Assembly: GCF_010729105.1 (NCBI RefSeq)
Contig: NZ_AP022573.1
Location: 3,720,001 to 3,784,000, forward strand
From: Mycobacterium saskatchewanense
GTDB lineage: Bacteria; Actinomycetota; Actinomycetes; Mycobacteriales; Mycobacteriaceae
Direction: 5' to 3'
DNA length: 64,000 nt
Shown piece after piece: positions 14,769-27,950 of this stretch; the stretch's first letter is position 1, and every line of letters starts with the position of its first letter. The notes under the pieces are model-generated. The model was not told where the DNA came from. It saw only the letters and a list, made by a program, of their open reading frames with translations, and ran no database searches. A program made the translations under genes and the position numbers.

Positions 14769-14781
14769 CTCCTATGTCAAG
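14769..14781 (-). repeat. Right-flank sequence echoed inside the element's non-coding end
   Basis: On the minus strand the right end/flank reads CTTGACATAGGAG. The upstream non-coding part of the same element carries CTTGATAGGAG (15904-15914), identical apart from two extra bases. A bridge RNA must carry guide sequences matching element ends and target, so the echo may be functional. The part AGGAG is also the SDR ribosome site, so chance is possible. Confidence 0.4.
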
Positions 14782-15828
14782 CCGCTGCCAGTTGGCAAGG
14801 CTTTTGGCGGTTGTTGTGGTCGGTGTGAAGGTGGCGAAAGACGACGCGGGCGAGGCGGCGCTTGAGGCAACGAAGAGCTTCGGGGGCGGAGTCGCCTTGA
14901 GCGAGGCGGTGCCGGTAGTAGGTCTGGCCTAGGCCGTCGAGGCGAATCTGGGTGACGGCGATGCGGTGCAGCGCAGCGTTGAGCTGGCGGTTGCCCGAAC
15001 GCGTCATCCGGACCCGGCCGTGGGTGTTGCCCGACCACACCGGCACCGGCGCCACACCGCTATGGCGGGCGAAAGCTGCCTCACTCTTGAATCGGGTGAC
15101 GCCAGCGGTCTCGCCGACAAGCTTGGCCGCGGTCAGCTCCCCGCATCCGGGCATCGCCAGCAGCACCGGGGCGACGGCACGCACATGCTCACCGATGCGT
15201 TTAGCCAAGGCGTTGATCTGTTCGGTGAGTCGAGTGATGTCGGCCAACTCGTCGCTGGCCAACTCGGCGAGCAGACCGTCGAGGGTGTTCAGCCAGTCAC
15301 CGAGGATGACCCGGTGTTTGGCCAGGTCCAATGACCGAGCCACCGGGGCGCGCTCGGGATCGAGCTCGTGAATACGCCAGCGCAGCCGGTTGATCATCGC
15401 AGTCCGTTGTGCGACAAGGACTTCGCGGCGATCGACCAACAACTTCAACTCACGTGACACCTCGTCGTGAGAGGCGACGGCAGATCTGGCTCGCGCAGAA
15501 ATGCCCGCGCGACCGCCAACGCATCGATGGGATCGGACTTGCCGCGCGTGCGCGCCGAAGCCCGCACCTGAGCCATCATCTTCGGGGGAACCCGCACCAC
15601 GTTCTGACCAAATCCGAACAGGTCGCGTTCCAGACGCGCCGACAAGTGCCGGCAGTCCTCGATGGCCCAGACGACGTCGTCGCCGAAATGTTCGCGGGCC
15701 CACATCACCGCCTCGGCATGCCCAGCGGTGACCGCCGTAACGGTCTTCTCACCAACCTTGCGGCCCACCTCGTCGACGGCGACAAAGGTATGCGTGCGCT
15801 TGTGTACATCGGCTCCAACAACAACCAT
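14777..15828 (-). pseudogene. IS110-family transposase, broken by a one-base frameshift
   Basis: The N-terminal DEDD catalytic domain (MVVVGADVHKRTH, WAIEDCRHLS, KSDPIDALAVAR) runs in one frame to about 15478. The gene then continues in another frame with VASHDEVSRELK and a complete C-terminal Transposase_20 domain (MPGCGELTAAKLVGE, ARHSGVAPVPVWSGNT). The join is at CTG-CCG-TCG (15475-15483): one base missing from an expected CCG-GTC explains it, and a -1 ribosomal slip would also restore the frame. IS110 transposases normally need no frameshift, so I call it inactive. The start ATG at 15828 has GGAGG 5 bases upstream. Combined length is about 350 residues, normal for the family. Confidence 0.85.
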
Positions 15829-15844
15829 GGTGGTTGCCTCCATT

Positions 15845-16189: not shown

Positions 16190-16975
16190 TCAGCCGCCCC
16201 CGCGGGGCTCTTTTGCGGCCACCCCCCACAGGACCTCGAACAGGTTTCGCTGCATCTCGACGAACTCGACGCTTTCCACCACGAGCGCAAAACTCTCCCG
16301 CTTCGACGAGATCATCGCGACTGCCGCGTCGCCGATGATCATCGTCATCGTGAAGACATATTCGGCGGGCACGTAGCGGGTGCGCCGGTAGTCCTCATCA
16401 CTCGATGGCCAACCGCCCGGCAAGTCCTTCTCCGGCGACCGCAGGACGTGTAGCCAGAGTTTGCGTTCCCGCCGTCCGGCGACGTACTCGTCCATCGCCT
16501 CGACGCCCGGCACGGTCAGCAGGTCGCGCATCGACAGGACGCCCCGAAGGGGCGACGGCCAATCCAGCGTCTCGAACAACGCCGTCCTGATCCCGCTGAC
16601 CCCCTCCAGGTACCGCACACGCGGAGCCGTGCCGCCCTTGGCGTACATAGCCCGCAGCTGAGGGATCAGCGATTCGAGCATCCGCCGCCGCTGACTCCAC
16701 TCGTCCAGCAGGTGTTGCGGATCCGCCGCTCGCACGATTGTCGTGGGGCGACCACCGGCCCGCCCTCCCCGGTGGCTACCCCCCTCGATCAGCGAGAGGA
16801 GGCCCCGCTGAGCCAGCCGCTTGGCGATGTCGTACGCGTTTGTCCGGCTGATCTGCGACGCCTCGGCGACCTGGGCGACGGTGGCCGAATCCATACTGAG
16901 TGCCGCGAGATAGAACCGAGCCTCCTTGGGTTCGAGACCGGCTTCGACGAGCTCAGCCCACATCGCGCGTCCCAC
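16190..16975 (-). CDS. TrmB-like winged-helix transcriptional regulator
   Basis: 261 residues. The N-terminal helix-turn-helix (about 8-65) reads LEPKEARFYLAALSMDSATV, then VAEASQISRTNAYDIAKRL, typical of the TrmB family. A Gly/Arg-rich linker (GGSHRGGRAGGRP) and an effector domain of about 170 residues without a known motif follow. The first start (GTG at 16975) has GGAGG 3 bases upstream; an ATG four codons later is spaced 15 bases and remains possible. It lies 93 bases downstream of the actP-like gene on the same strand, so it may be cotranscribed and may sense the transported acid. Confidence 0.8.
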   Translation of the reverse strand: MGRAMWAELVEAGLEPKEARFYLAALSMDSATVAQVAEASQISRTNAYDIAKRLAQRGLLSLIEGGSHRGGRAGGRPTTIVRAADPQHLLDEWSQRRRMLESLIPQLRAMYAKGGTAPRVRYLEGVSGIRTALFETLDWPSPLRGVLSMRDLLTVPGVEAMDEYVAGRRERKLWLHVLRSPEKDLPGGWPSSDEDYRRTRYVPAEYVFTMTMIIGDAAVAMISSKRESFALVVESVEFVEMQRNLFEVLWGVAAKEPRGGG

Positions 16976-17068: not shown

Positions 17069-18703
17069 TCAGTGGCTGACCGGCTTCTGCACACCGACGC
17101 CGGTGAGGGACCGGACTTCCATCTCGGCCTGCTTGGCGGGGTCCTCCCGCCGGCGGCGGCCCAGCTGCGTTCCGACGACCCCGAGGGCGAACCCAAGGGG
17201 GATCGAGACGATGCCCGGATTGGCCAACGGGAACCAGGCGAAGTCGGCATGGGGAAACATCGCCGCCGGGTTCCCGGAGACGGCGGGCGAAAAGACGATG
17301 AGCACAAGGCAAGACGCCAAGCCGCCGTAGATGCTGAACAGGGCGCCGACGGTGTTGAATCGCTTCCAGAACAACGAGTACAGCAAGGTCGGCAGGTTGG
17401 CCGAGCCGGCGATCGCGAATGCCAGCGCCACCAGAAACGCCACGTTCTGTCCCATGGCGAGGATCCCCAAAACGATGGCCATGACGCCAATCACGGCAAC
17501 GAGCGCCCGTGAGACGCGGACCTGCTGTTCTTCCGTGGCATTGCCGCGCTTGATCACACCGGCGTAGACGTCGTGGGCGAGCGAGGTCGCGGCCGTGATC
17601 ACCAGGCCAGAGACCACGGCCAGGATGGTTGCGAATGCGACGGCGGCGATCACGCCGAGGAAAATGCTGCCGCCCAACCGGTATGCGAGCAGCGGTGCAG
17701 CGGAGTTCTCCTTGCCGGCGGTCGACAGCACGGTGTCCGGGCCGACCAGCCACGCCGCACCGTAACCGATGGCCAACGAGAACAGATAGAAGACGCCGAC
17801 CAAGCCGATCGCCCAGGTGACCGAGCGACGCGCCTCTCGTGCCGTCGGAACCGTGTAGAAGCGCATCAGCACGTGCGGCAGGCCGGCGGTGCCCAGCACC
17901 AGCGCGACGCCCAGCGAGATGAAATCGCGTTTGGTGGTCGGTGTGACGCCGTATTTGGCGCCGGGTTCCAACAGGTTACGTCCGGCGATTCCCTTGGTAA
18001 TGGACGCGTCCGCCTTCGCCTGCGCGTGGGCGAGCAGTTGGGAGAAGTTACCCCGCACCGCGAGCACCACGAGGAAGAACATGATGGCGGCCCCCGACAC
18101 CAGGAGCGCCGCCTTGACCATCTGAACGTAGGTCGTGCCCTTCATGCCCCCGATGAGCACGTAAGCGATCATCAATGCGCCCACCACGGCCACCACGGCG
18201 GACTGGCCGACACGGCTGTTGATGTTGAGCAGCAGGGCGACAAGCCCGCCGGCGCCTGCCATCTGGGCGAGCAGATAGAACAGCGAGACGGTGAGCGTGG
18301 ACAACGCGGCCGCCGTGCGGACGGGCCGCTGCCGCAGCCGATAACTGAGGACATCTGCCATGGTGAAGCGCCCCGTGTTGCGCAAGAGTTCGGCGACGAG
18401 CAACAGCGCCAGCAACCACGAGACGAAAAAGCCGATCGAGTAGAGGAAGCCGTCGTAGCCGTACACGGTGATGGCACCTGACACGCCGAGGAACGACGCC
18501 GCCGACAGGTAGTCGCCGGCGATCGCGAAACCGTTTTGCGCACCGGAGAACTCACCCCCGCCGGTGTAGAAGTCGGCAGCGTTCGTGGTGCTCCGGCCCG
18601 CGCGGATCACCAAAGCCAAGGTGACGATGACGAAGAACGCGAACACCGCGATGTTGACCACCGGATCGCCGACATGGGAGGCCGCCGCGAGGTTGACGGT
18701 CAT
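17069..18703 (-). CDS. Sodium:solute symporter, ActP-like (monocarboxylate uptake)
   Basis: 544 residues with about 13 hydrophobic segments spread over the whole chain, as in the SSS family. The sodium/substrate region FYTGGGEFSGAQNGFAIAGD (residues 45-64) and the following SAASFLGVSG are characteristic of ActP acetate/glycolate permeases. The short C-terminal tail is cytosolic. Its ATG overlaps the stop of the DUF485 gene (ATGA), the usual yjcH-actP arrangement. Together with the nearby nitrilase, CaiB and AccD3-like genes it probably imports a short organic acid related to the nitrilase product; the exact solute is inference. Confidence 0.9.
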   Translation of the reverse strand: MTVNLAAASHVGDPVVNIAVFAFFVIVTLALVIRAGRSTTNAADFYTGGGEFSGAQNGFAIAGDYLSAASFLGVSGAITVYGYDGFLYSIGFFVSWLLALLLVAELLRNTGRFTMADVLSYRLRQRPVRTAAALSTLTVSLFYLLAQMAGAGGLVALLLNINSRVGQSAVVAVVGALMIAYVLIGGMKGTTYVQMVKAALLVSGAAIMFFLVVLAVRGNFSQLLAHAQAKADASITKGIAGRNLLEPGAKYGVTPTTKRDFISLGVALVLGTAGLPHVLMRFYTVPTAREARRSVTWAIGLVGVFYLFSLAIGYGAAWLVGPDTVLSTAGKENSAAPLLAYRLGGSIFLGVIAAVAFATILAVVSGLVITAATSLAHDVYAGVIKRGNATEEQQVRVSRALVAVIGVMAIVLGILAMGQNVAFLVALAFAIAGSANLPTLLYSLFWKRFNTVGALFSIYGGLASCLVLIVFSPAVSGNPAAMFPHADFAWFPLANPGIVSIPLGFALGVVGTQLGRRRREDPAKQAEMEVRSLTGVGVQKPVSH

Positions 18704-19050
18704 CAGAGCGCCCCTTCGAGCTTTGCCCGAATGGCCGCGGCACGCGGATCGAGCGAGCGGTTGGCGAATCTGACGTAGAGCGCGGTAATCGCGAAGGTGG
18801 TGGCGAACTGGCCGAACCCGAGTACCACACCGAGGTTGATGTTGCCGCAGACCTTGATCGCCATGAAGCCGCGCGCGTACATGGCAAGCAGCATGAAGGC
18901 CAGGTACCAGGCGAGGAAGAAGGCCGTCATCGGGAACGTGAACCGGCGTAACCGCCGGCGCAGATCCCGGAACTCCGGGCTGTCCTGCACCTCCTGGAAG
19001 GTCTGGAGGTCTGACGTCCCGGTGCGGGCGTCGATCAGGGGTTGTGGCAC
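18703..19050 (-). CDS. DUF485 (YjcH-like) small membrane protein
   Basis: 115 residues. Two membrane spans (about 41-62 and 72-95) follow a charged N-terminal region (RDLRRRLRRFTFPMTAFFLA), as in YjcH, which accompanies ActP-type symporters. The function is unknown but may be assembly or regulation of the symporter. The GTG start at 19050 has a strong GGAGGTAGGAC ribosome site. It is the first gene of the actP operon; a -10-like TATAGT and an operator-like motif lie about 80 bases upstream. Confidence 0.88.
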   Translation of the reverse strand: MPQPLIDARTGTSDLQTFQEVQDSPEFRDLRRRLRRFTFPMTAFFLAWYLAFMLLAMYARGFMAIKVCGNINLGVVLGFGQFATTFAITALYVRFANRSLDPRAAAIRAKLEGAL

Positions 19051-19103
19051 GTCCTACCTCCGGGTGCAGCGGCCGGTGTCGAAGATTCTCGACCGTGTGG
19101 ATG

Positions 19104-19134
19104 AGTGGCCTATCCAGTGATGCGGACCACTATA
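19104..19134 (-). promoter_or_regulatory. actP-side promoter (-10 TATAGT) with shared operator-like motif
   Basis: Read on the minus strand, TATAGTGG is followed by CACTGGAT and AGGCCA. The promoter of the CaiB gene at 21329-21359 has TAGAGTGG, CACTGAT and AGGCCA in the same order. Both motifs begin in the -10 box. The GntR/FCD gene lies between the two promoters, so this is a candidate GntR operator. Confidence 0.5.
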
Positions 19135-19248
19135 AAGTCCTCCAGGACATACCGCCAGCCATGCAACTGGGTCGAGGAGGCCGCGTGGTGTCGAGCAGCC
19201 TCGACAATTAGCCCGCGACCTGCGGTGCGAAGCGCAAGCGGTCTGTAA

Positions 19249-19279
19249 ATTGTCGAGAAAATTAGACAATCGCGACAAT
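19249..19279. promoter_or_regulatory. ATTGTC/GACAAT repeat cluster upstream of nitrilase
   Basis: ATTGTC (19249-19254) and GACAAT (19265-19270) form an inverted pair, and GACAAT recurs at 19274-19279. TCGACAATTA at 19201-19210 is a further match. They lie just upstream of the nitrilase -35 box, a position that suits an activator. Confidence 0.45.
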
Positions 19280-19300
19280 GAAGCGGGGCCTCGTCGGGAG

Positions 19301-19328
19301 TTGACAGCTCTTCAACTGGGTCTATGGT
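19301..19328 (+). promoter_or_regulatory. Promoter of the nitrilase gene
   Basis: TTGACA (19301-19306), 16 bases, TATGGT (19323-19328) is a near-ideal vegetative promoter. An inverted repeat AGTTGA-N7-TCAACT (19299-19317) overlaps the -35, so a bound regulator could block it. Transcription would start near 19335, leaving a leader of about 78 bases. Confidence 0.6.
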
Positions 19329-19412
19329 GGGATCTGAGTTCAGTCATACCCCGAAATGAATGTCGACAGATTCAGACATTCTGAGCGCCGCCCCGTATCC
19401 AAGGAGTCTCAC

Positions 19413-20516
19413 GTGTCCCTCGCCCCGCTGCCCAGGGTGTCCGTTGCCGCAGTTCAGGCGGCGCCGGTCTTCCTCGACCTGCAGGCCTCCCTCGACAAGG
19501 TCGAGGAGCTGGTTCGTACCGCCGCTCGCGACGGCGCCCAGCTGGTGGTTTTCGGGGAGGCCTTCCTCGCCGGGTTCCCCGCCTGGAACGCCGTGCTGCC
19601 TCCGATCGACCAGCATCCGCTGCACGAACGCTTGGTCGCCGCGTCGATCGTGGTGCCCGGACCGCACACCGACCGGCTCAGCCGCATCGCCCGGCAGAAC
19701 GGCGTGGTGCTTTCCGTGGGGATCAACGAGCGCAACCCGAACAGCCTTGGGCAGCTGTGGAATTCGAACCTGGTGTTCGACCGGAACGGCCGCTTGGTGA
19801 ACCACCGCCGCAAGCTGGTGGCCACCTGGTACGAGCGCCTGACATGGTCCCACGGCGACGCCTACGATCTGCGGCCGGCGGAACTCGACGGGTGGCAGCT
19901 CGGTGCCCTCATCTGTGGCGAAAACACCAACACGCTCGCGAGATTCACCCTGCTCGCGCAGGGCGAGCGCATGCACCTCGCGACCTACCCGCCCGCGTGG
20001 CCGTTCGACGGGCGCACGGAGAACTTCGAATACGACCTGGCCGAGAGCATCCGACTCCGCAGTGCGGCACACGCATTCGAGGGCAAGGTGTTCGTCGTCG
20101 TCGCGGCCACCACCCTGGACGAGGTGGCCATGCGCGAGATTGCCCAGGGCGACAACCGAATCGAGCGGGCACTGACCGCGGCACCGCCGGCGTCGATGGT
20201 GGTCGGTCCCGATGGCCGGCTCGTCGCCGGCCCGCTGACCGCCCCCGAGGGGATCCTGCACGCGGAAATCGACCTGCAGCGTGAGGTCGTGGCCAAGCAG
20301 GCCCATGACATCGTCGGCACGTACAACCGCGCGGACATCTTCCAGCTGTCGGTCGACACGCGCCGACCCGCGATACTTCGCGCGCCCCACGAGTCGGCCG
20401 AACACTCTGCGGTCAACGGCGCCGCCGCCCACACCGGCGCTCGGCCGCTGACCGACGAGCGCGCGAGTACCATGGTAGAACTGCGCTCGGACGACGCGTC
20501 CGTCGGATCGTCTTAG
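19413..20516 (+). CDS. Nitrilase (C-N hydrolase superfamily)
   Basis: 367 residues. It converts a nitrile to the carboxylic acid and ammonia. The catalytic triad is visible: Glu49 in VVFGEAFLAGFP, Lys134 in HRRKLVATWYE and Cys168 in ALICGENTN. The Cys-Gly-Glu-Asn setting is that of true nitrilases rather than amidases. The start is the GTG at 19413, with AAGGAG 6 bases before it; an in-frame upstream ATG lacks this. The C-terminal 40 residues are low-complexity. It lies between an acid symporter and acyl-CoA enzymes. Its last 4 bases overlap the stop of the convergent GntR gene. Arylaceto- or aliphatic nitriles are both possible. Confidence 0.9.
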   Translation: MSLAPLPRVSVAAVQAAPVFLDLQASLDKVEELVRTAARDGAQLVVFGEAFLAGFPAWNAVLPPIDQHPLHERLVAASIVVPGPHTDRLSRIARQNGVVLSVGINERNPNSLGQLWNSNLVFDRNGRLVNHRRKLVATWYERLTWSHGDAYDLRPAELDGWQLGALICGENTNTLARFTLLAQGERMHLATYPPAWPFDGRTENFEYDLAESIRLRSAAHAFEGKVFVVVAATTLDEVAMREIAQGDNRIERALTAAPPASMVVGPDGRLVAGPLTAPEGILHAEIDLQREVVAKQAHDIVGTYNRADIFQLSVDTRRPAILRAPHESAEHSAVNGAAAHTGARPLTDERASTMVELRSDDASVGSS

Positions 20517-21235
20517 CGATCCGACGAATTCTCGTCGACCCGGAGCAGGTCGACATCGGAGACCAGCTTGAGGTGGTCGTCCATCGCGGCCGCGGCAGCG
20601 TCGGGGTCCTGCCGTCGGACGGCCTCGGCGATACGTCGGTGACCCTCAAGCGATGCCCGTGGACGTCCGCGCTGCGACAGCGACTCGATGCGGCTCTCCC
20701 GGATGAGCCCCGCCATCTCGCGCATCAACTTCGCGAGCAGCGCCGAGTGCGCCGCCACGGTCAGGGCCTCGTGGAATTGCTCGTCGCCCGCGACGCCGCG
20801 GTCACCGTCGGCGATTTCGGATTCCATTGTCGCCAAGGCCGATTCGATCGCCGCCAGCTCGTCGTCGGTGCGTCGCGCCGCGGCCAGCGCGGCGATCTTC
20901 ACCTCGAGCGCCTGCCGGGCCTCGATGATGTCGGGCAAGCGATCCGCGTGCTCCCGCAGGGCCGCGACGGCCCGTTCCTCGCTCGGCCGCCCGACCAGGA
21001 CGGCCCCGTCGCCGTGGCGAACCGCCAGCACGCCCTGCACCTCGAGGGCCACCAAGGCCTGGCTCACCGAGGCGCGGCTGACGCCGAGTTTCGCGGCGAG
21101 TTCCCGTTCGGCGGGGAGGCGGTCCCCCGGAGCCAGTCCAGCGTCGTCGATGTACGCGCAGATCTGTTCGACGATCACCTCATAGAGGCGGGGACGGCTT
21201 ACCGGACGAAGTTGCTGGGCCACTGGGTCACTCAC
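20513..21235 (-). CDS. GntR family regulator, FCD (FadR-like) subgroup
   Basis: About 240 residues. The N-terminal winged helix contains LAPGDRLPAERELAAKLGVS and RASVSQALVALEVQGVLAV, the GntR hallmark. The helical FCD ligand domain follows (about 85-225), with metal-site-like residues in EARQALEVKIAALAA, DEQFHEAL and the final HRRIAEA. FCD regulators sense organic acids. The start is uncertain: GTG 21235 directly abuts AGGAGA, while TTG 21268 and GTG 21223 also keep the domain. It is the likely regulator of the flanking symporter, nitrilase and CaiB-AccD3 genes, whose promoters share an operator-like motif. Confidence 0.85.
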   Translation of the reverse strand: MSDPVAQQLRPVSRPRLYEVIVEQICAYIDDAGLAPGDRLPAERELAAKLGVSRASVSQALVALEVQGVLAVRHGDGAVLVGRPSEERAVAALREHADRLPDIIEARQALEVKIAALAAARRTDDELAAIESALATMESEIADGDRGVAGDEQFHEALTVAAHSALLAKLMREMAGLIRESRIESLSQRGRPRASLEGHRRIAEAVRRQDPDAAAAAMDDHLKLVSDVDLLRVDENSSDR

Positions 21236-21303
21236 TCTCCTCGCAGCAAACGGTACCCCACTCCGCAATCATCGAGCGCGACGCGGGTGAGACCGGCGCG
21301 GAC

Positions 21304-21359
21304 TTGACGCCGGCCGTCGCGCCGTGGGTAGAGTGGCTAGTCCACTGATCCACTAGGCC
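21304..21359 (+). promoter_or_regulatory. CaiB-AccD3 promoter with operator over -10/+1
   Basis: TTGACG (21304-21309) and TAGAGT (21329-21334) are 19 bases apart. The sequence from 21332 holds AGTGG-CTAGT-CCACT, a perfect 5-base inverted repeat (21332-21346), then GATCCACTAGGCCA. It shares TAnAGTGG, CACTG and AGGCCA with the actP-side site at 19104-19134. A regulator bound here would cover the transcription start. Confidence 0.5.
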
Positions 21360-21406
21360 AGCGGACGCCAGCCTCGACGACACGCCAACGACGGAAGTGG
21401 TGGGAC

Positions 21407-22606
21407 ATGACCCGCGTAACCGAATCGGACCGGGCCCTCGCGGGGGTCCTCGTGGTCGACCTGAGCCGCGCGCTGGCGGGGCCGCACGCCGCCATGATGC
21501 TCGCGGACCTGGGTGCCGACGTGATCAAGGTCGAAGCACCCGGGGCGGGGGACGACACCCGTGGCTGGGGGCCGCCGTTCATCGAGACCGACGGCGGTCA
21601 ACTGGAGTCGACCTACTTCCTCTCGGCCAACCGCAACAAGAGGTCGGTCGCGCTGGACCTCAAATCCGACGAGGGCGTGCGCGTGCTCGAGGCGCTGGTG
21701 CGCCGCGCCGACGTCCTGATCGAGAACTTCCGCACCGGCGTGCTCGACCGGTTGGGGTTTTCCACCGAACGGCTCGCCGAGCTCAACCCGGGACTGGTCA
21801 TGCTGTCGATCACGGGATTTGGTCATGACGGCCCTGATGGGGGCCGCGCGGGGTATGACCAAATTGCCCAGGGCGAGGCGGGTTTGATGTCGCTGACCGG
21901 GTCCGGCCCCGACGACATCCAAAAGGTCGGCGTGCCGATCGCCGACCTGCTGGCCGGCATGTACGGCGCCTTCGGCGTGGTGTCGGCCCTGCTCAACCGC
22001 GCGGCGACCGGCAGGGGCCGGGTGGTGCGGACGTCGCTGCTGGCCGCTGTCGTGGGCGTCCACGGGTTCCAGGGAACGAAATGGACCGTCGCGAAACAGG
22101 TGGGTCGTGCGCAGGGCAACCACCACCCCTCGGTCTGCCCCTATGGGCTGTTTCCCACCGCGGACGGCGCGGTGCAGATTGCGGTGGGCAGCGAAGGCCT
22201 GTGGCGGAAGTTCTGCGCCGGTTTCCACCTCGATCCCGAGGCTCCGGGGATGGCCAGCAACCCCGAACGCGTCGAGAACCACAAGGCCGTCAACCAGGCC
22301 GTGGAGGCCGCGTTCGCCGGCTGGGACACCGAGAGACTGCTGGACGAGCTGAAACGCATCGGGATCCCGGCCGGTCGGATCCGCAGCATCGACCAGGTCT
22401 ACGAGTGGGAACAGACGCGCTCGCAGGGCCTGCTCGTCGACGTCGAGCACCCCACCCTGGGCAGCATCACGCTGCCCGGGCCCCCGCTGCGCTTCTTCGA
22501 CTTCGACGGTCGCGAGGCGGCCCCCGTCCAGCATCAGTCGCCGCCACTGCTGGGCGCAGACACCGAAGCCGTCGTCTCCTGGCTCAACGACGGGGAATCC
22601 AAATGA
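21407..22606 (+). CDS. CaiB/BaiF family CoA-transferase
   Basis: 399 residues, full length. The N-terminal VVDLSRALAGPHAAMMLADL and GADVIKVE motifs, ENFRTGVLDRLG and SITGFGHDGP place it in class III. The residue that normally carries the catalytic Asp is Arg208 (GRVVRTSLL); many actinobacterial relatives also vary here, so activity is not excluded but is not guaranteed. It should exchange CoA between an acid and an acyl-CoA. It is the first gene of a two-gene operon (ATGA overlap with the carboxyltransferase) and diverges from the GntR regulator. Its natural substrate may be the acid formed by the nitrilase or imported by the symporter. Confidence 0.88.
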   Translation: MTRVTESDRALAGVLVVDLSRALAGPHAAMMLADLGADVIKVEAPGAGDDTRGWGPPFIETDGGQLESTYFLSANRNKRSVALDLKSDEGVRVLEALVRRADVLIENFRTGVLDRLGFSTERLAELNPGLVMLSITGFGHDGPDGGRAGYDQIAQGEAGLMSLTGSGPDDIQKVGVPIADLLAGMYGAFGVVSALLNRAATGRGRVVRTSLLAAVVGVHGFQGTKWTVAKQVGRAQGNHHPSVCPYGLFPTADGAVQIAVGSEGLWRKFCAGFHLDPEAPGMASNPERVENHKAVNQAVEAAFAGWDTERLLDELKRIGIPAGRIRSIDQVYEWEQTRSQGLLVDVEHPTLGSITLPGPPLRFFDFDGREAAPVQHQSPPLLGADTEAVVSWLNDGESK

Positions 22607-24135
22607 CGCGAACCGGCGCCCGCGAGGCCGTCGCGAGGCTGGTCGATGCCGGCTCGTGGCGGTCCTGGGACACCCCGGCGGACGTCACCGGCGACTCCGC
22701 CTACGGTGCGGAATTGCGCCGGGCGCAAGAACGCACCGGCCTGGACGAAGCGGTGCTCACGGGCGCCGCCACCGTGCGCGGCCGGCGAGTGGCAATCCTG
22801 GTGGGTGACTTCGGGTTTCTCGGCGGTTCGATCGGCGTGGCGGCCGGCGACCGGCTGGCCATCGCGATCCGCCGCGCTACGTCGGAGCGGCTGCCCCTCA
22901 TCGCGTTGCCCGCCTCCGGGGGCACTCGCATGCAGGAGGGCACCACGGCGTTCGTCCAGATGGTGAAGATCACCGCCGCCGTGGTCGAGCACAAGGCCGC
23001 TCGGCTGCCCTACCTGGTGTACTTGCGCAACCCCACGATGGGCGGCGTCTTCGCCTCGTGGGGCTCACTGGGGCATGTGACGATCGCCGAGCCGGGCGCC
23101 CGCATCGGCTTCCTGGGGCCCCGGGTCTACGAAGCGCTGTTCGGCAAGCCTTTTCCCGCGGGAGTGCAGACCGCCGAGAACCTGTACGGCTGCGGGCTCA
23201 TCGATGCGGTCACCCCGCTGGACGAACTCCCCGGGGTGGTCGACCGCGCGCTGCGCATCATCGGCACTCCGCCGCCAGACCGGATCCCCGCGGCACCCCG
23301 ACAGGCCCCCGCCATCGATGTGCCGGCCTGGCGGTCCATCACGGCATCGCGCCGGGCCGACCGGCCGGGTGTTCGGGAACTGCTGCGCCACAACGCAACC
23401 GAGTTGCTGCCGCTCAACGGCACCGGCCAGGGCGAGACCTACCCGGGCCTGCTCTTGGCGCTCACGCAGCTGGCGGACACGGCGTGCGTGCTGGTGGCCC
23501 ATGACCGCAGCAGCCAGACGCGGCAGGATCCCCTGGGCCCGGGGGCGCTGCGGGAGGCCCGTCGCGGGATGCGGCTGGCCGCCGACCTCGGGCTGCCTCT
23601 GGTCGCGGTGATCGACACGGCCGGCGCGGCGCTGTCCCGCGAGGCCGAAGAGGGTGGTCTGTCCGGCGAAATCGCGCGGTGCATCGCCGACATGATATCG
23701 CTGGACGTGCCCACGGTTTCCGTGCTGCTGGGCGAGGGCAGCGGCGGCGGGGCGCTCGCGCTCCTGCCCGCGGACCGGATGCTGGCCGCGCAGCATAGTT
23801 GGTTGTCGCCGCTCCCCCCGGAGGGCGCCAGCGCCATCGTCTACCACGACACCTGCCACGCGGCCGAGATGGCCGAGATGCAGGGGGTGCGTTCCGCCGA
23901 TCTGCTGGCGCACGGCATCGTCGACCGCATCGTCCCCGAGTGCAACGACGCCGCCGACGAGCCCATCCAGTTCAGCAAGCGGATCGGCGCGGCCGTGCGT
24001 GAGGAGTTGGCGCGTCTCATGCTGGAAGCCGATGGCAAAAGCGGGATTTCGGCGCGTGTCGAGCGGTTCGACCGCATCGGGCGCACCCAGTCGGCGGTCG
24101 GACGTGGCCCCGCGCAGCCGCAATTCGCGAGCTGA
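22603..24135 (+). CDS. AccD3-like acyl-CoA carboxyltransferase (beta/alpha halves fused)
   Basis: 510 residues with two crotonase-fold halves. The N-half (about 1-245) has GGSIGVAAGDRLAIA, PASGGTRMQEGT and MGGVFASWGSLGH. The C-half (about 265-470) has GEGSGGGALALLPADR and LSPLPPEGASAI. The arrangement and motifs closely match M. tuberculosis AccD3 as I remember it. Such proteins move a carboxyl group between biotin and an acyl-CoA, or decarboxylate malonyl-type thioesters. No biotin carboxylase or biotin carrier gene is nearby, so it needs partners elsewhere or acts differently. The ATG at 22603 overlaps the CaiB stop; the long upstream extension is a shadow. Confidence 0.85.
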   Translation: MTRTGAREAVARLVDAGSWRSWDTPADVTGDSAYGAELRRAQERTGLDEAVLTGAATVRGRRVAILVGDFGFLGGSIGVAAGDRLAIAIRRATSERLPLIALPASGGTRMQEGTTAFVQMVKITAAVVEHKAARLPYLVYLRNPTMGGVFASWGSLGHVTIAEPGARIGFLGPRVYEALFGKPFPAGVQTAENLYGCGLIDAVTPLDELPGVVDRALRIIGTPPPDRIPAAPRQAPAIDVPAWRSITASRRADRPGVRELLRHNATELLPLNGTGQGETYPGLLLALTQLADTACVLVAHDRSSQTRQDPLGPGALREARRGMRLAADLGLPLVAVIDTAGAALSREAEEGGLSGEIARCIADMISLDVPTVSVLLGEGSGGGALALLPADRMLAAQHSWLSPLPPEGASAIVYHDTCHAAEMAEMQGVRSADLLAHGIVDRIVPECNDAADEPIQFSKRIGAAVREELARLMLEADGKSGISARVERFDRIGRTQSAVGRGPAQPQFAS

Positions 24136-24581: not shown

Positions 24582-26330
24582 GTGGAGCCAGAGCCAGACC
24601 CGGTCGCGCAGGTGCTGCGCGCGCGCAGACAATTCCTGCGCACCGGGTCGCTGCAGGAGTGGGGCGTTCGGGAAGACGTCCTGCATTCATGGCGCCGATC
24701 CAGGTCGTTGCGGGTGCACCCGGACCGCGTGGAGCTGCCGTTCGTCCGGCAATCCAGGACCGACTCCGAGCTGATGACGGCGGCGGCCCCGATCCTGCGC
24801 CGCATCGCCGACGATGTCAGCGGACAGCCGGTTTGCGTCATCTTGACGACGGCGGAGGGCGTCGTCTTGGAGCGGCTGGGTGGTGACTCGGCGCTCGTCG
24901 AGGCGCTGGACGCGGTGCGTTTGGTGCCCGGATACAGCTTCGCCGAGAAGTTCGCCGGCACCAACGGGATCGGGACCACCCTGGAACTCGCGCAGCCCAC
25001 CTACATCGAGGGCGGCGAGCACTACATGGCGCCCCTCGGGCGGTTGACCTGTGCCGCCGCCCCCATCCGTGACCCTTCGACGCGCCGGATCGCCGGTGTC
25101 GTCGACCTCACCGGCTTCACCGACCAATCCGCCCCGCTGTTGTACGCGCTCGCCAAGAGCGCCGCCAAGCAGATCGAGGACCGGATGAGGCTGTTGGCGC
25201 GCGAGAGCGAAACGGCTTTGCTCGAGGCGTACCTGCAGCACTGTCGGCGGTATCCCCATGGTGTGCTGGCCGTCGGTGGGGACGTCGTCCTGATGAACCG
25301 CCAGCTGCGTCGAACCCTGGAAGTCAACGATCGAACGGCGTTGTCGGAACGGGCGTCGGAGTTCCGCGGCTCGGCGGTCGTCGGCGCCGTGCTGACCGTG
25401 GAGCTGCCCAGTGGTGCCGCCGCGCGCGTGCGGGCGGTGCATCGGTCACCGGGGCGGGGCGGCCGCGCCAACTTCGTCTATCAGGTGCACATCGACGTCG
25501 CCGAGGCCGATTCGCCTCCGCCCGTGCACATCCCGCACCTCGCCGGGACCAGCAGCTCCTGGCGTCACGCCGCGCAGCAGGTCGACCGAAGCTGCCGCGA
25601 GCGGGAATGGCTGGTGCTCAACGGAGAACCGGGATCGGGCCGGTCCGCGCTGGCCCGTGCGGTCGCCCAGCACCTGCGACCTGAACGCACCGTTCGTGTG
25701 CTTTCCTGCCGCACCATGGATGCCGCGCAAGTGCTCACCGAACTCGAAGCGGCAACCGTGGGTCCGGACTTCGCCACGGTGATCGCCGATCTGGACCGCA
25801 CCGACGGTACGGCGCTCGAGCCGATCGCCGACCTGCTGCGCTCCCGCACCGGGCGGGGCTGGCTGGCGGCGACGATCGGACCCGGGTCCCCCTCACCGGC
25901 CCTCGAGGCGCTGTTGGCGGTCTTCCCGCGCACCGTCGCCGTGCCGGCGTTGCGGCACCGGATCGAGGACCTCGACGAGTTGGTGCCCTTCCTACTGCAC
26001 GAGCTGACGCGCGGCGCGCCCGTGCGGCTGCATCCCGAGGCGATGTCCCAATTGCGGAAGTTGCCGTGGCCCGGCAACGTCGGGCAACTGCGGGAGGTGT
26101 TGGCCCGCACGGTCGCCACACAGCGCTCGGGCGTGATCGTGGCGCGTCAACTCCCGCCCGAATGCTGGTCGGTGTCCAAGCACACGCTCTCCCGGATCGA
26201 GGCCCTGGAACGCGACGCGATCGTGCGCGGCCTGCTCGAAAACGGCGGCAACAAGGCGGGCGCCGCCGAGGCCCTCGGCATGTCCCGTGCGACGATCTAC
26301 CGCAAAATCAACGAGTACGGCATCATCTGA
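24582..26330 (+). CDS. AcoR-like activator (GAF + degenerate AAA+ + Fis-type HTH)
   Basis: 582 residues. The N-terminal GAF-type sensor (about 65-210) contains GYSFAEKFAGTNGIGT, a strong AcoR-family signature. The central AAA+ region has a Walker A-like GEPGSGRSALA (near 345) but no GAFTGA loop, so it is unlikely to contact sigma-54, which mycobacteria lack. The C-terminal Fis-type helix-turn-helix reads NKAGAAEALGMSRATIYRKI. The GTG start is chosen because the family N-terminus begins here. Such actinobacterial proteins control neighbouring dehydrogenases; mmsA follows 126 bases downstream and is the likely target. Confidence 0.87.
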   Translation: MEPEPDPVAQVLRARRQFLRTGSLQEWGVREDVLHSWRRSRSLRVHPDRVELPFVRQSRTDSELMTAAAPILRRIADDVSGQPVCVILTTAEGVVLERLGGDSALVEALDAVRLVPGYSFAEKFAGTNGIGTTLELAQPTYIEGGEHYMAPLGRLTCAAAPIRDPSTRRIAGVVDLTGFTDQSAPLLYALAKSAAKQIEDRMRLLARESETALLEAYLQHCRRYPHGVLAVGGDVVLMNRQLRRTLEVNDRTALSERASEFRGSAVVGAVLTVELPSGAAARVRAVHRSPGRGGRANFVYQVHIDVAEADSPPPVHIPHLAGTSSSWRHAAQQVDRSCREREWLVLNGEPGSGRSALARAVAQHLRPERTVRVLSCRTMDAAQVLTELEAATVGPDFATVIADLDRTDGTALEPIADLLRSRTGRGWLAATIGPGSPSPALEALLAVFPRTVAVPALRHRIEDLDELVPFLLHELTRGAPVRLHPEAMSQLRKLPWPGNVGQLREVLARTVATQRSGVIVARQLPPECWSVSKHTLSRIEALERDAIVRGLLENGGNKAGAAEALGMSRATIYRKINEYGII

Positions 26331-26456
26331 CGCCGGCGGCCTTCACCCATGCCGCAAACGCATAGACGGTGCACGCCAGGCATTTCCCAACGGGTCCTTC
26401 CGCTCCTAGCGTGATGGTTAGTCGCCATGTCGCCCAGGCAAACCGGAAGGACGCCG

Positions 26457-27950
26457 ATGAGCACCACCATTCCCCATTGGGTCAACAATGCGGAATTCGC
26501 CGGCAGCAGTACCGCAACCGCGCCGGTCACCAACCCGGCCACCGGCGAAACGACCGGCCGGGTCGCCCTGGCCGGCATCGACGACGCCCGGGCGGTGATC
26601 GATGCCGCCGCCGCTGCCTATCCCGGATGGCGTGACACGTCGCTGGCCAAGCGCACCGCGATCCTGTTCAACTTCCGTGAACTGCTCAATGCGCGGAAAG
26701 ATGAGCTGGCGGCGATCATCACCGGCGAGCACGGCAAGGTGCTCTCCGATGCGCTGGGCGAGATCGGTCGAGGGCAGGAGGTCGTCGAATTCGCCTGCGG
26801 CGTACCGCATCTTCTCAAGGGCGGATTCACCGAGAACGCCTCGACCAACGTCGACGCGCACTCGTCGCTGCAACCGCTCGGCCCAGTCGCCGTCATCAGC
26901 CCGTTCAACTTTCCCGCGATGGTCCCGATGTGGTTCTTTCCGATCGCGATCGCAACGGGCAACACGGTGGTGCTCAAACCCAGCGAGAAGGACCCCTCCG
27001 CGTCGCTGTGGCTGGCCCGCCTCTGGGCCGAAGCGGGTCTGCCCCCAGGGGTTTTCAACGTGCTCCAGGGTGACAAGACGGCCGTCGACGAGCTGCTGGT
27101 CAACCCGGGTATCAAAGCGGTGTCGTTCGTCGGGTCCACCCCGATCGCGCGGCACGTCTACGCAACCGGATGCGCGGCCGGCAAACGCGTGCAGGCCCTC
27201 GGCGGCGCCAAGAACCATGCCGTGGTCCTGCCCGACGCCGACCTCGACGTCGCCGCGGACGCCATGATCAACGCCGGGTTCGGCTCGGCTGGTGAGCGCT
27301 GCATGGCCATCAGCGTCGCAGTGGCGGTCGGCCCGATCGCCGACGAGTTCGTCGCCAAGATCGCCGAGCGGGCCGCCACGATCAGAACGGGTGACGGAAC
27401 CCGGGATTCGGACATGGGGCCACTCGTCACCCGGGAACATCGCGACAAGGTGATCTCCTACATCGATGACGGCGAGACCGACGGGGCCAAGATCGTCGTG
27501 GACGGCCGCAACGTCAGTGTCGACGGCGCAGACGGCGGATTCTGGTTGGGGCCGACGCTGATCGACCACGTCACCACCGACATGAGCGTCTACACCGACG
27601 AGATTTTCGGTCCCGTGCTGGCGGTGGTGCGCGTGGAGTCCTACGACGACGCGCTGCGGCTCGTAAACGCCAACCCCTACGGCAACGGCACCGCTCTCTT
27701 CACCAATGACGGTGGCGCCGCCCGCCGATTCCAGAAAGAGGTCGAGGTGGGCATGGTGGGCATCAATGTCGCCATTCCGGTCCCGATGGCCTACTACAGC
27801 TTCGGCGGTTGGAAGGCGTCCCTGTTCGGCGACACCCACGCCCACGGCGTCGAGGGAGTGCACTTCTTCACCCGCACCAAGGCGGTCACCACCCGCTGGC
27901 TGGACCCTAGTCATGGCGGGATCAACCTCGGATTCCCGCAGAACGCCTGA
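26457..27950 (+). CDS. mmsA: Methylmalonate-semialdehyde dehydrogenase (CoA-acylating)
   Basis: 497 residues. It oxidises methylmalonate or malonate semialdehyde to propionyl- or acetyl-CoA in valine, thymine and beta-alanine breakdown. The MmsA marks are SPFNFPAMVPMWFFPIAI, the LGGAKNHAVVLPDAD segment, and the catalytic Cys in GSAGERCMAIS (about 282). The usual ALDH general-base Glu is replaced by Asn in GGAKNH, as is typical for CoA-acylating MmsA. The ATG at 26457 has GGAAGG 8 bases upstream; an upstream ATG adds ten residues without a site. It probably responds to the AcoR-like activator upstream. Confidence 0.93.
   Translation: MSTTIPHWVNNAEFAGSSTATAPVTNPATGETTGRVALAGIDDARAVIDAAAAAYPGWRDTSLAKRTAILFNFRELLNARKDELAAIITGEHGKVLSDALGEIGRGQEVVEFACGVPHLLKGGFTENASTNVDAHSSLQPLGPVAVISPFNFPAMVPMWFFPIAIATGNTVVLKPSEKDPSASLWLARLWAEAGLPPGVFNVLQGDKTAVDELLVNPGIKAVSFVGSTPIARHVYATGCAAGKRVQALGGAKNHAVVLPDADLDVAADAMINAGFGSAGERCMAISVAVAVGPIADEFVAKIAERAATIRTGDGTRDSDMGPLVTREHRDKVISYIDDGETDGAKIVVDGRNVSVDGADGGFWLGPTLIDHVTTDMSVYTDEIFGPVLAVVRVESYDDALRLVNANPYGNGTALFTNDGGAARRFQKEVEVGMVGINVAIPVPMAYYSFGGWKASLFGDTHAHGVEGVHFFTRTKAVTTRWLDPSHGGINLGFPQNA

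Follow-up and report, generated by a model that had tools for sequence, protein, structure and literature searches.

Background

Two described systems of malonate use come closest to the locus treated here. In the Rhizobium mat system, which has a decarboxylase (MatA) and a synthetase (MatB), the regulator MatR is of GntR type and the carrier is MatC. An extract of PMC12303837 describes MatC in use as a malonate importer, and an extract of PMC5534430 reports that MdcD-MdcE, the AccD/AccA-like pair of biotin-independent malonate decarboxylase (MdcA, MdcC, MdcD, MdcE), decarboxylates malonyl-CoA in vitro. We compare with these systems a locus in a 64,000-nucleotide stretch of Mycobacterium saskatchewanense (the window; contig NZ_AP022573.1, positions 3,720,001 to 3,784,000), part of a 6.0-Mb single-contig genome, in which genes for a GntR-type regulator, a CaiB-type CoA-transferase (CaiB) and a one-chain AccD-AccA-type protein (AccD3b) adjoin genes for a nitrilase and an MctC-type symporter. 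We argue that this is probably a fused regulon, in which two modules were joined and the regulator of a malonate route captured mctC.

The locus resembles the mat system in its GntR-type regulator, in the MatC-family carrier found in relatives and in malonate as the likely substrate; it differs in having a class III CoA-transferase for the MatB ligase and an AccD-AccA-type protein for the MatA decarboxylase, and in the loss of MatC. No member of the MatA or MatB families was found among the locus proteins scanned, and no genome-wide search for them was made. With Mdc, whose MdcD-MdcE pair is carboxyltransferase-like in the extract of PMC5534430, the locus shares the logic of a transferase combined with an AccD/AccA-like decarboxylase; unlike Mdc, it names no carrier protein, its transferase is of CaiB type, and its AccD3b, a single chain, is closer to AccD/AccA than to MdcD. 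The same one-chain architecture, at about 60% identity, is found in the genus-wide mycobacterial AccD3. Unlike that protein, of which some match is present in 178 of 198 genomes of the genus, AccD3b forms a separate clade, occurs in 11 of the 198 and is linked to gntR and caiB.

A conserved operator at the transporter and caiB promoters

The regulator (20513..21268, minus strand) belongs to the FCD (FadR) subfamily of GntR proteins, with matches to PF00392 (59.5 bits, cut-off 27) and PF07729 (97.5 bits, cut-off 24.3); its start probably lies further in, as relatives align from about residue 9. A sequence-only reading of the locus had proposed that this one regulator controls uptake and CoA activation through a gapped motif shared by two promoters. 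The motif is real: with its spacers left free (0-12) it matches the genome at exactly two places, the mctC and caiB promoters, and its backwards control matches nowhere. Its register was wrong. The gapped form aligns letters at unequal spacing (7 and 3 at one site, 6 and 7 at the other) and was given up, since its letters are present but relatives conserve an ungapped form. The common element is the ungapped 20-mer TGG(A/C)TAG(G/T)CCACT(C/G)ATCCAC, which reads TGGATAGGCCACTCATCCAC at the mctC promoter (19116-19097, minus) and TGGCTAGTCCACTGATCCAC at the caiB promoter (21334-21353, plus), the two being identical at 17/20 positions. The predicted operator of mctC (19097..19116) stands 12 bp downstream of a -10 TATAGT (19134-19129), while that of caiB (21334..21353) overlaps the -10 of the promoter TTGACG, 19 bp, TAGAGT (21304..21334, plus), both promoters having been read by eye.

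Conservation was followed in two sets of relatives. The first is the best 80 of at least 554 loci encoding a CaiB relative (the named loci), a choice biased to close relatives and including some short contigs; among the matches listed, the nearest CaiB carriers include named Mycobacterium and Rhodococcus strains. Genes were called in it at thresholds that we set (GntR 48%, MatC 45%, AccD3b 50%). The core TGGNTAGNCCA stands within 4 kb of caiB in 43 of the 45 named loci that hold GntR and in 3 of the 35 that do not; one of these three is cut by a contig end (L119) and another has a more distant GntR call (L136). All 59 core sites in the named loci are within 4 kb of caiB, with 0 elsewhere in 1.58 Mb. 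The second set is the other loci of the genus with the regulator, where the core is present in 22/22 and marks both the transporter and the caiB promoter in 19; there is one more core some 7 kb away. The motif is thus conserved in relatives that have the same regulator. Because a conserved operator stands at both promoters, it is very probable that one FCD-type GntR controls both the transporter genes and caiB-accD3b, as the sequence-only reading had it.

The pattern TGGNTAGNCCANTNNNCCAC, in which N at position 4 was picked so as to admit the mctC site of the window, has 2 exact matches in its own genome; a single mismatch adds none, and two mismatches add 19. With up to 2 mismatches allowed, the backwards control matches 42 times, and we therefore regard the 2-mismatch class as background. 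Across the 198 genus genomes there are 16 exact matches in 11 genomes, against 9 scattered matches of the backwards control. Two are the sites above, 13 fall at loci with gntR and caiB in 9 other genomes, and 1 lies elsewhere (G043:C188:517-536), the sole exact match outside such loci and the window. One genome with the operon (G041) has no exact match. Sites with A at position 4 were also found at caiB in L119 and L129.

The sites were then re-tested with a scoring matrix trained on sites from other genomes that strictly read TGGCTAG(G/T)CCA (41 unique sites of the named loci, none from the own genome). The caiB site ranks first in the window (36.1 bits), the mctC site second (22.6 bits) and a place at 21210 third (16.3 bits); the next best reaches 2.4 bits, and the best places in 19 loci without the operon's regulator score 5.0 bits or less. 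The third place (21210..21233, plus) covers the gntR start region and suggests possible autoregulation of gntR; the alignment shows this block to be conserved, though constraint on the coding sequence might also account for that.

An extract of PMC4494728 gives TKGT-N3-ACMA as the FadR-subfamily consensus and places weaker boxes at 7-12 nt from its centre. The operator described here, TGGC-N3-GCCA, has the same length and spacing and an extra downstream box; it shares the geometry and not all of the letters, having C and G in place of the usual T and A, and its CCAC box lies 11-14 nt from the centre, slightly past the range in that extract.

The AGTG-N8-CACT half of the gapped motif was rejected as a GntR operator, as forms of it occur at mctC promoters that have no operator; at the mctC promoter of the window it continues the older palindrome of those promoters and is unlikely to be where GntR binds. 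A weak operator-like palindrome, TGGCTGAGCCA (L115:9905-9928, 5.0 bits), lies just upstream of caiB in a Rhodococcus erythropolis barbiturase cluster, in a stretch with no such GntR.

Two modules that are normally separate

Family profile scores agree with the gene order and families proposed from the sequence: an SSF symporter (at MctC level), DUF485, CN_hydrolase, GntR-FCD, CoA_transf_3 and a Carboxyl_trans/ACCA fusion. The earlier reading omitted a TrmB-like regulator gene (16190..16975, minus; PF01978, 40.4 bits, cut-off 25.6), which is a partner of the nitrilase and mctC. The genes fall into module A, TrmB-like / mctC-DUF485 // nitrilase, and module B, gntR / transporter / caiB-accD3b.

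Module B has a restricted distribution. Its gntR (at least 69%), caiB (at least 71%) and accD3b occur in the same 11 of the 198 genus genomes, and gntR in 23 of 396 genomes, the own one included. In the 22 other genus genomes, what lies between gntR and caiB is matC in 19 (Pfam-confirmed in 3, by similarity in the others), an MFS transporter gene in 2 and no gene in 1 (G041). The MFS genes (L205:7725-9312 in G268 and L207:3601-5119 in G264) take the place of matC; both promoters still have their operator sites, one of which has a mismatch in L207. The 80 named loci divide into GntR+MatC+CaiB+AccD3b (36), CaiB+AccD3b (16), MatC+CaiB+AccD3b (9), GntR+CaiB+AccD3b (7), CaiB alone (7), MatC+CaiB (3) and GntR+MatC+CaiB (2). 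A CaiB-AccD pair (63%/58%) without this GntR is present in G033. In many Nocardioides and Terrabacter loci a TauE/SafE-family gene (PF01925; L158:8456-9214) adjoins gntR and may encode an exporter linked to the operon.

Module A, as mctC-DUF485 // nitrilase, is present in six other genomes (G132, G110, G031, G173, G234, G216) and decayed in a seventh (G089). The mctC copies beside the nitrilase are 81-84% identical in the six. The TrmB-like gene adjoins mctC in all of these genomes except G216, in the stretch from which it had no match, and is decayed in G089. In this 3.2-Mb genome (L082, G089:C53), stops and frame breaks interrupt the nitrilase and mctC, and the upstream palindromes are kept. 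Nitrilase orthologs without a nearby mctC occur in G072, G214 and G077.

The two modules were found side by side in the window only. No match to the nitrilase or mctC/DUF485 stands beside the regulator in stretches from 22/22 other genus genomes (mostly 17-18 kb, two 14-15 kb), and gntR, caiB and accD3b were not seen beside nitrilase-mctC-DUF485 in the 7 other module-A genomes. When 397 relatives were searched with the DNA of 18703-21450, only the own genome, among the matches listed (two candidates scored per genome), matched the nitrilase and gntR at one place; in G077 the nitrilase and a gene of the gntR/caiB/accD3b side are both present, about 3.2 Mb apart. Within this scope the comparative search for the full gene set recovered it nowhere else, and a conserved nitrilase-CaiB-AccD3 unit was discarded: the locus is two normally separate modules side by side.

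CaiB and AccD3b

CaiB (21407..22606, plus) is a class III CoA-transferase, matching PF02515 over positions 1-366 of 366 with 381.6 bits. Its best NCBIfam match places it nearest to succinate--glutarate and related class III transferases, without reaching the succinate--glutarate CoA-transferase equivalog (NF052585; 326.5 against 750 bits). We propose that it may act as an acyl-CoA:malonate CoA-transferase.

AccD3b (22603..24135, plus; PF01039 and PF03255), the proposed malonyl-CoA decarboxylase, has a carboxyltransferase fold. It begins at about AccD position 56 and lacks the N-terminal part, which in AccD holds the zinc ribbon. It reaches neither the AccD/AccA equivalog cut-offs (TIGR00515, 174.9 against 317.45 bits; NF004344, 154.2 against 357 bits) nor those of the Mdc families (MdcD TIGR03133, 58.1 against 278.15 bits; MdcE TIGR03134, 19.1 against 237.15 bits). 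A tree was built from tblastn segments covering 420 columns or more (96 distinct rows out of 104). In it AccD3b groups with Rhodococcus and Mycobacterium proteins in one clade (36/96 rows, support 100), and the genus-wide AccD3 forms another (15 rows, support 100), a separation that led us to drop the idea of an ordinary AccD3. Alignment A2, which had a wrong-strand row (L017), was not used, and A3 leaves that row out.

A fold of this carboxyltransferase type can decarboxylate malonyl-CoA, since MdcD-MdcE does so in the extract of PMC5534430, and on balance we lean towards AccD3b being a decarboxylase. Several observations pull the other way. The sequence is far closer to AccD/AccA of acetyl-CoA carboxylase than to MdcD (E 4e-57 against 6e-7); taken together, the CaiB-linked AccD-AccA proteins are not separated from AccD3 as a single clade, a separation seen just for those of Rhodococcus and Mycobacterium (in a quick tree with a long window branch); in 12 of the 80 named loci the stretch encodes CaiB and no AccD3b; and a biotin protein could come from elsewhere, as the genome has six biotin carboxylase genes. 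These genes, together with a sequence and fold like those of acetyl-/propionyl-CoA carboxylase, would suit a true biotin-dependent carboxyltransferase, with CaiB activating some acid and AccD3b carboxylating its CoA ester by means of a biotin protein encoded elsewhere. We regard this as unlikely: no relative of biotin carboxylase (E<=1e-30) was found in the 80 named loci, and the neighbours, a dicarboxylate carrier and a pyrimidine-breakdown cluster, fit the removal of a carboxyl group better than carboxylation.

Nature of the acid

Malonate or a dicarboxylate close to it is the likelier acid, and malonate itself has quite good odds, because neighbours in other genomes (MatC, a barbiturase cluster and MmsA) point to it. 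The MatC family is found at module-B loci of relatives. In R. erythropolis (L115), caiB-accD3b lies amid an amidase, a barbiturase-family protein (PF09663), UPRTase, PucR and a xanthine/uracil permease; L116 has the same homologues, and in L152 a barbiturase-family gene stands against caiB. The barbiturase pathway of pyrimidine breakdown ends in malonate. An MmsA 74-75% identical to one encoded in the window abuts caiB in Nonomuraea (L124) and Actinomadura (L126). In L135 and L137 a barbiturase-family gene is about 5 kb away and there is no AccD3b.

Other points count against malonate. PF09663 also covers cyanuric acid hydrolases, so the barbiturase label leans on the pyrimidine neighbours. 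Plasmid relatives of CaiB (58-67%; 7 plasmid records) lie in aromatic, amidase or aldehyde-dehydrogenase clusters in the three annotated of four inspected, the fourth being unannotated, and carriers of MctC type are known for monocarboxylates, not malonate. A regulon for another diacid such as methylmalonate or glutarate would accord with the affinity of CaiB to succinate--glutarate CoA-transferase, with the membership of MmsA in the methylmalonate semialdehyde dehydrogenase family, and with MatC-type carriers, which may be broad; set against the barbiturase-family clusters of L115, L116 and L152, it seems to us improbable.

The nitrilase

The nitrilase (19413..20516, plus; PF00795, 137.9 bits) has a probable GTG start at 19413, within a longest frame from 19356. 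The solved structures that best match the protein are nitrilases, and it holds the motifs GEAF, RRKL and CGEN, which we take to be those of the Glu/Lys/Cys triad of nitrilase. It fails the cut-off of the Nit6803 type (TIGR04048; 207.5 against 502.6 bits) and is still a CN_hydrolase. Its promoter, assigned by eye as TTGACA, 16 bp, TATGGT (19301..19328, plus), has TTGACA and TAG/TAT aligned in relatives. Upstream lies a palindrome, TTGTC-N10-GACAA (19250..19269), also aligned in relatives and a candidate site for the nitrilase module's own regulator. The pattern TTGTC-N10-GACA was found in the loci of G132, G110, G031, G173, G089 and G234 and not in that of G216; with the stricter GACAA end, the palindrome was not found in the nitrilase-only loci L079, L080 and L081.

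The nitrilase had been proposed to make the acid that is taken up and activated, for which we find no support. It goes with mctC-DUF485 in other genomes and keeps its own promoter and palindrome, so it is probably outside the GntR regulon and looks like a neighbour, not a part of the switch. That it nevertheless feeds CaiB and AccD3b, for example by converting cyanoacetate, whose hydrolysis would give malonate, under a GntR that governs uptake and activation, is quite unlikely. The gene does adjoin module B, and its usual partner mctC carries a GntR operator here; set against this are its independent promoter, the distance between the two genes in G077, and the failure of every other genome examined (7 with module A, 22 with module B, and the 397 relatives among the matches listed) to link it to gntR, caiB and accD3b.

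Probable operator gain at the mctC promoter

The symporter (17069..18703, minus) passes the MctC equivalog cut-off (NF058657; 871.2 against 670 bits) and is the candidate transporter of the GntR regulon here. The first gene of its operon encodes a DUF485 protein (18703..19050, minus; PF04341, 119.8 bits), the GTG start of which was checked, and an mctC paralog (70%) is found elsewhere in the own genome. The MatC carrier that marks Mat-type systems, present in 19/22 other genus loci, is missing from this one, and MatC had no match in the own genome at E<=1e-5, in a search run without a positive control. The two MFS cases indicate that the transporter slot changes hands elsewhere too.

The operator was not found at 7/7 other module-A mctC promoters, where the best match has 5 or 6 mismatches of 14 fixed positions and four reach 2 mismatches for the 9-letter core; these promoters keep ATAGTG-N8-CACTAT in four cases and a variant of it in three. 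For this reason the operator was most likely gained in the present genome, and we are confident in proposing that the mctC promoter has captured it. Two facts besides the uncontrolled MatC search tell against this reading: the 22.6 bits of the site fall short of the median for known sites, 34.0 bits (range of the training sites 19.8-40.7), and the site is seen in one genome only. That the resemblance arose by chance, leaving caiB-accD3b as the only target of GntR here, as this low score, the single genome and the 12 bp from the -10 (the caiB site overlapping it) might suggest, is very improbable, since 40 million simulated independent positions (66% G+C, one strand) gave no match as good, the site is one of only two exact matches in the genome, and it stands at a transporter promoter, as in relatives.

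Proposed mechanism

Module B would be the remnant of an actinobacterial operon, gntR / matC / caiB-accD3b, which most likely serves to import malonate or a closely related dicarboxylate. CaiB would load the acid with CoA from acetyl-CoA or succinyl-CoA to give malonyl-CoA, and AccD3b, as a single chain, would decarboxylate this to acetyl-CoA; with acetyl-CoA as the donor, one turn would convert malonate to acetate and CO2, a carrier-free analogue of the Mdc cycle. GntR would probably repress at TGG(C/A)TAG(G/T)CCA-N5-CCAC near the -10 or the start of the transporter and caiB promoters, and would be released by binding of the acid or its CoA ester. In the present genome, with matC gone and module B beside the nitrilase/mctC/TrmB module, the mctC-DUF485 promoter would have gained a GntR operator, and MctC would either take the transporter role in the regulon or handle acetate freed by CoA exchange.

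As a whole, and tentatively, we suggest a further actinobacterial malonate route that needs neither carrier protein nor biotin. A class III CoA-transferase and a malonyl-CoA decarboxylase of one-chain AccD-AccA type would make it up, GntR would switch it, and its transporter could be exchanged, an exchange that would have been completed here by capture of the mctC promoter. In its boldest form, the nitrilase would supply the malonate from a cyano-acid.

Neighbouring genes

Downstream, 24582-27950 encodes a Fis-type regulator, with no match to the sigma-54 activation domain above the limit, followed by an MmsA-type dehydrogenase. Neither was kept as a member of the regulon, since the filtered genus loci gave no MmsA match next to module B; in L124 and L126, all the same, MmsA directly adjoins caiB. 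At 14777-15843 (minus), an IS110-type transposase spans two overlapping frames, with PF01548 in 15445-15843 and PF02371 in 14777-15703, and looks frameshifted.

Conclusions

The analysis offers a testable function for an AccD-AccA-type protein found beside a CoA-transferase in many Actinobacteria, and it leads to the prediction that GntR responds to malonate and has a sharply defined operator. The mctC promoter would be a clear example of a regulon taking over the transporter of another module after the loss of its own. Should AccD3b prove to be a decarboxylase, these genes would offer a compact alternative to mat and mdc, and one would have to ask what the genus-wide AccD3, about 60% identical to it, does.

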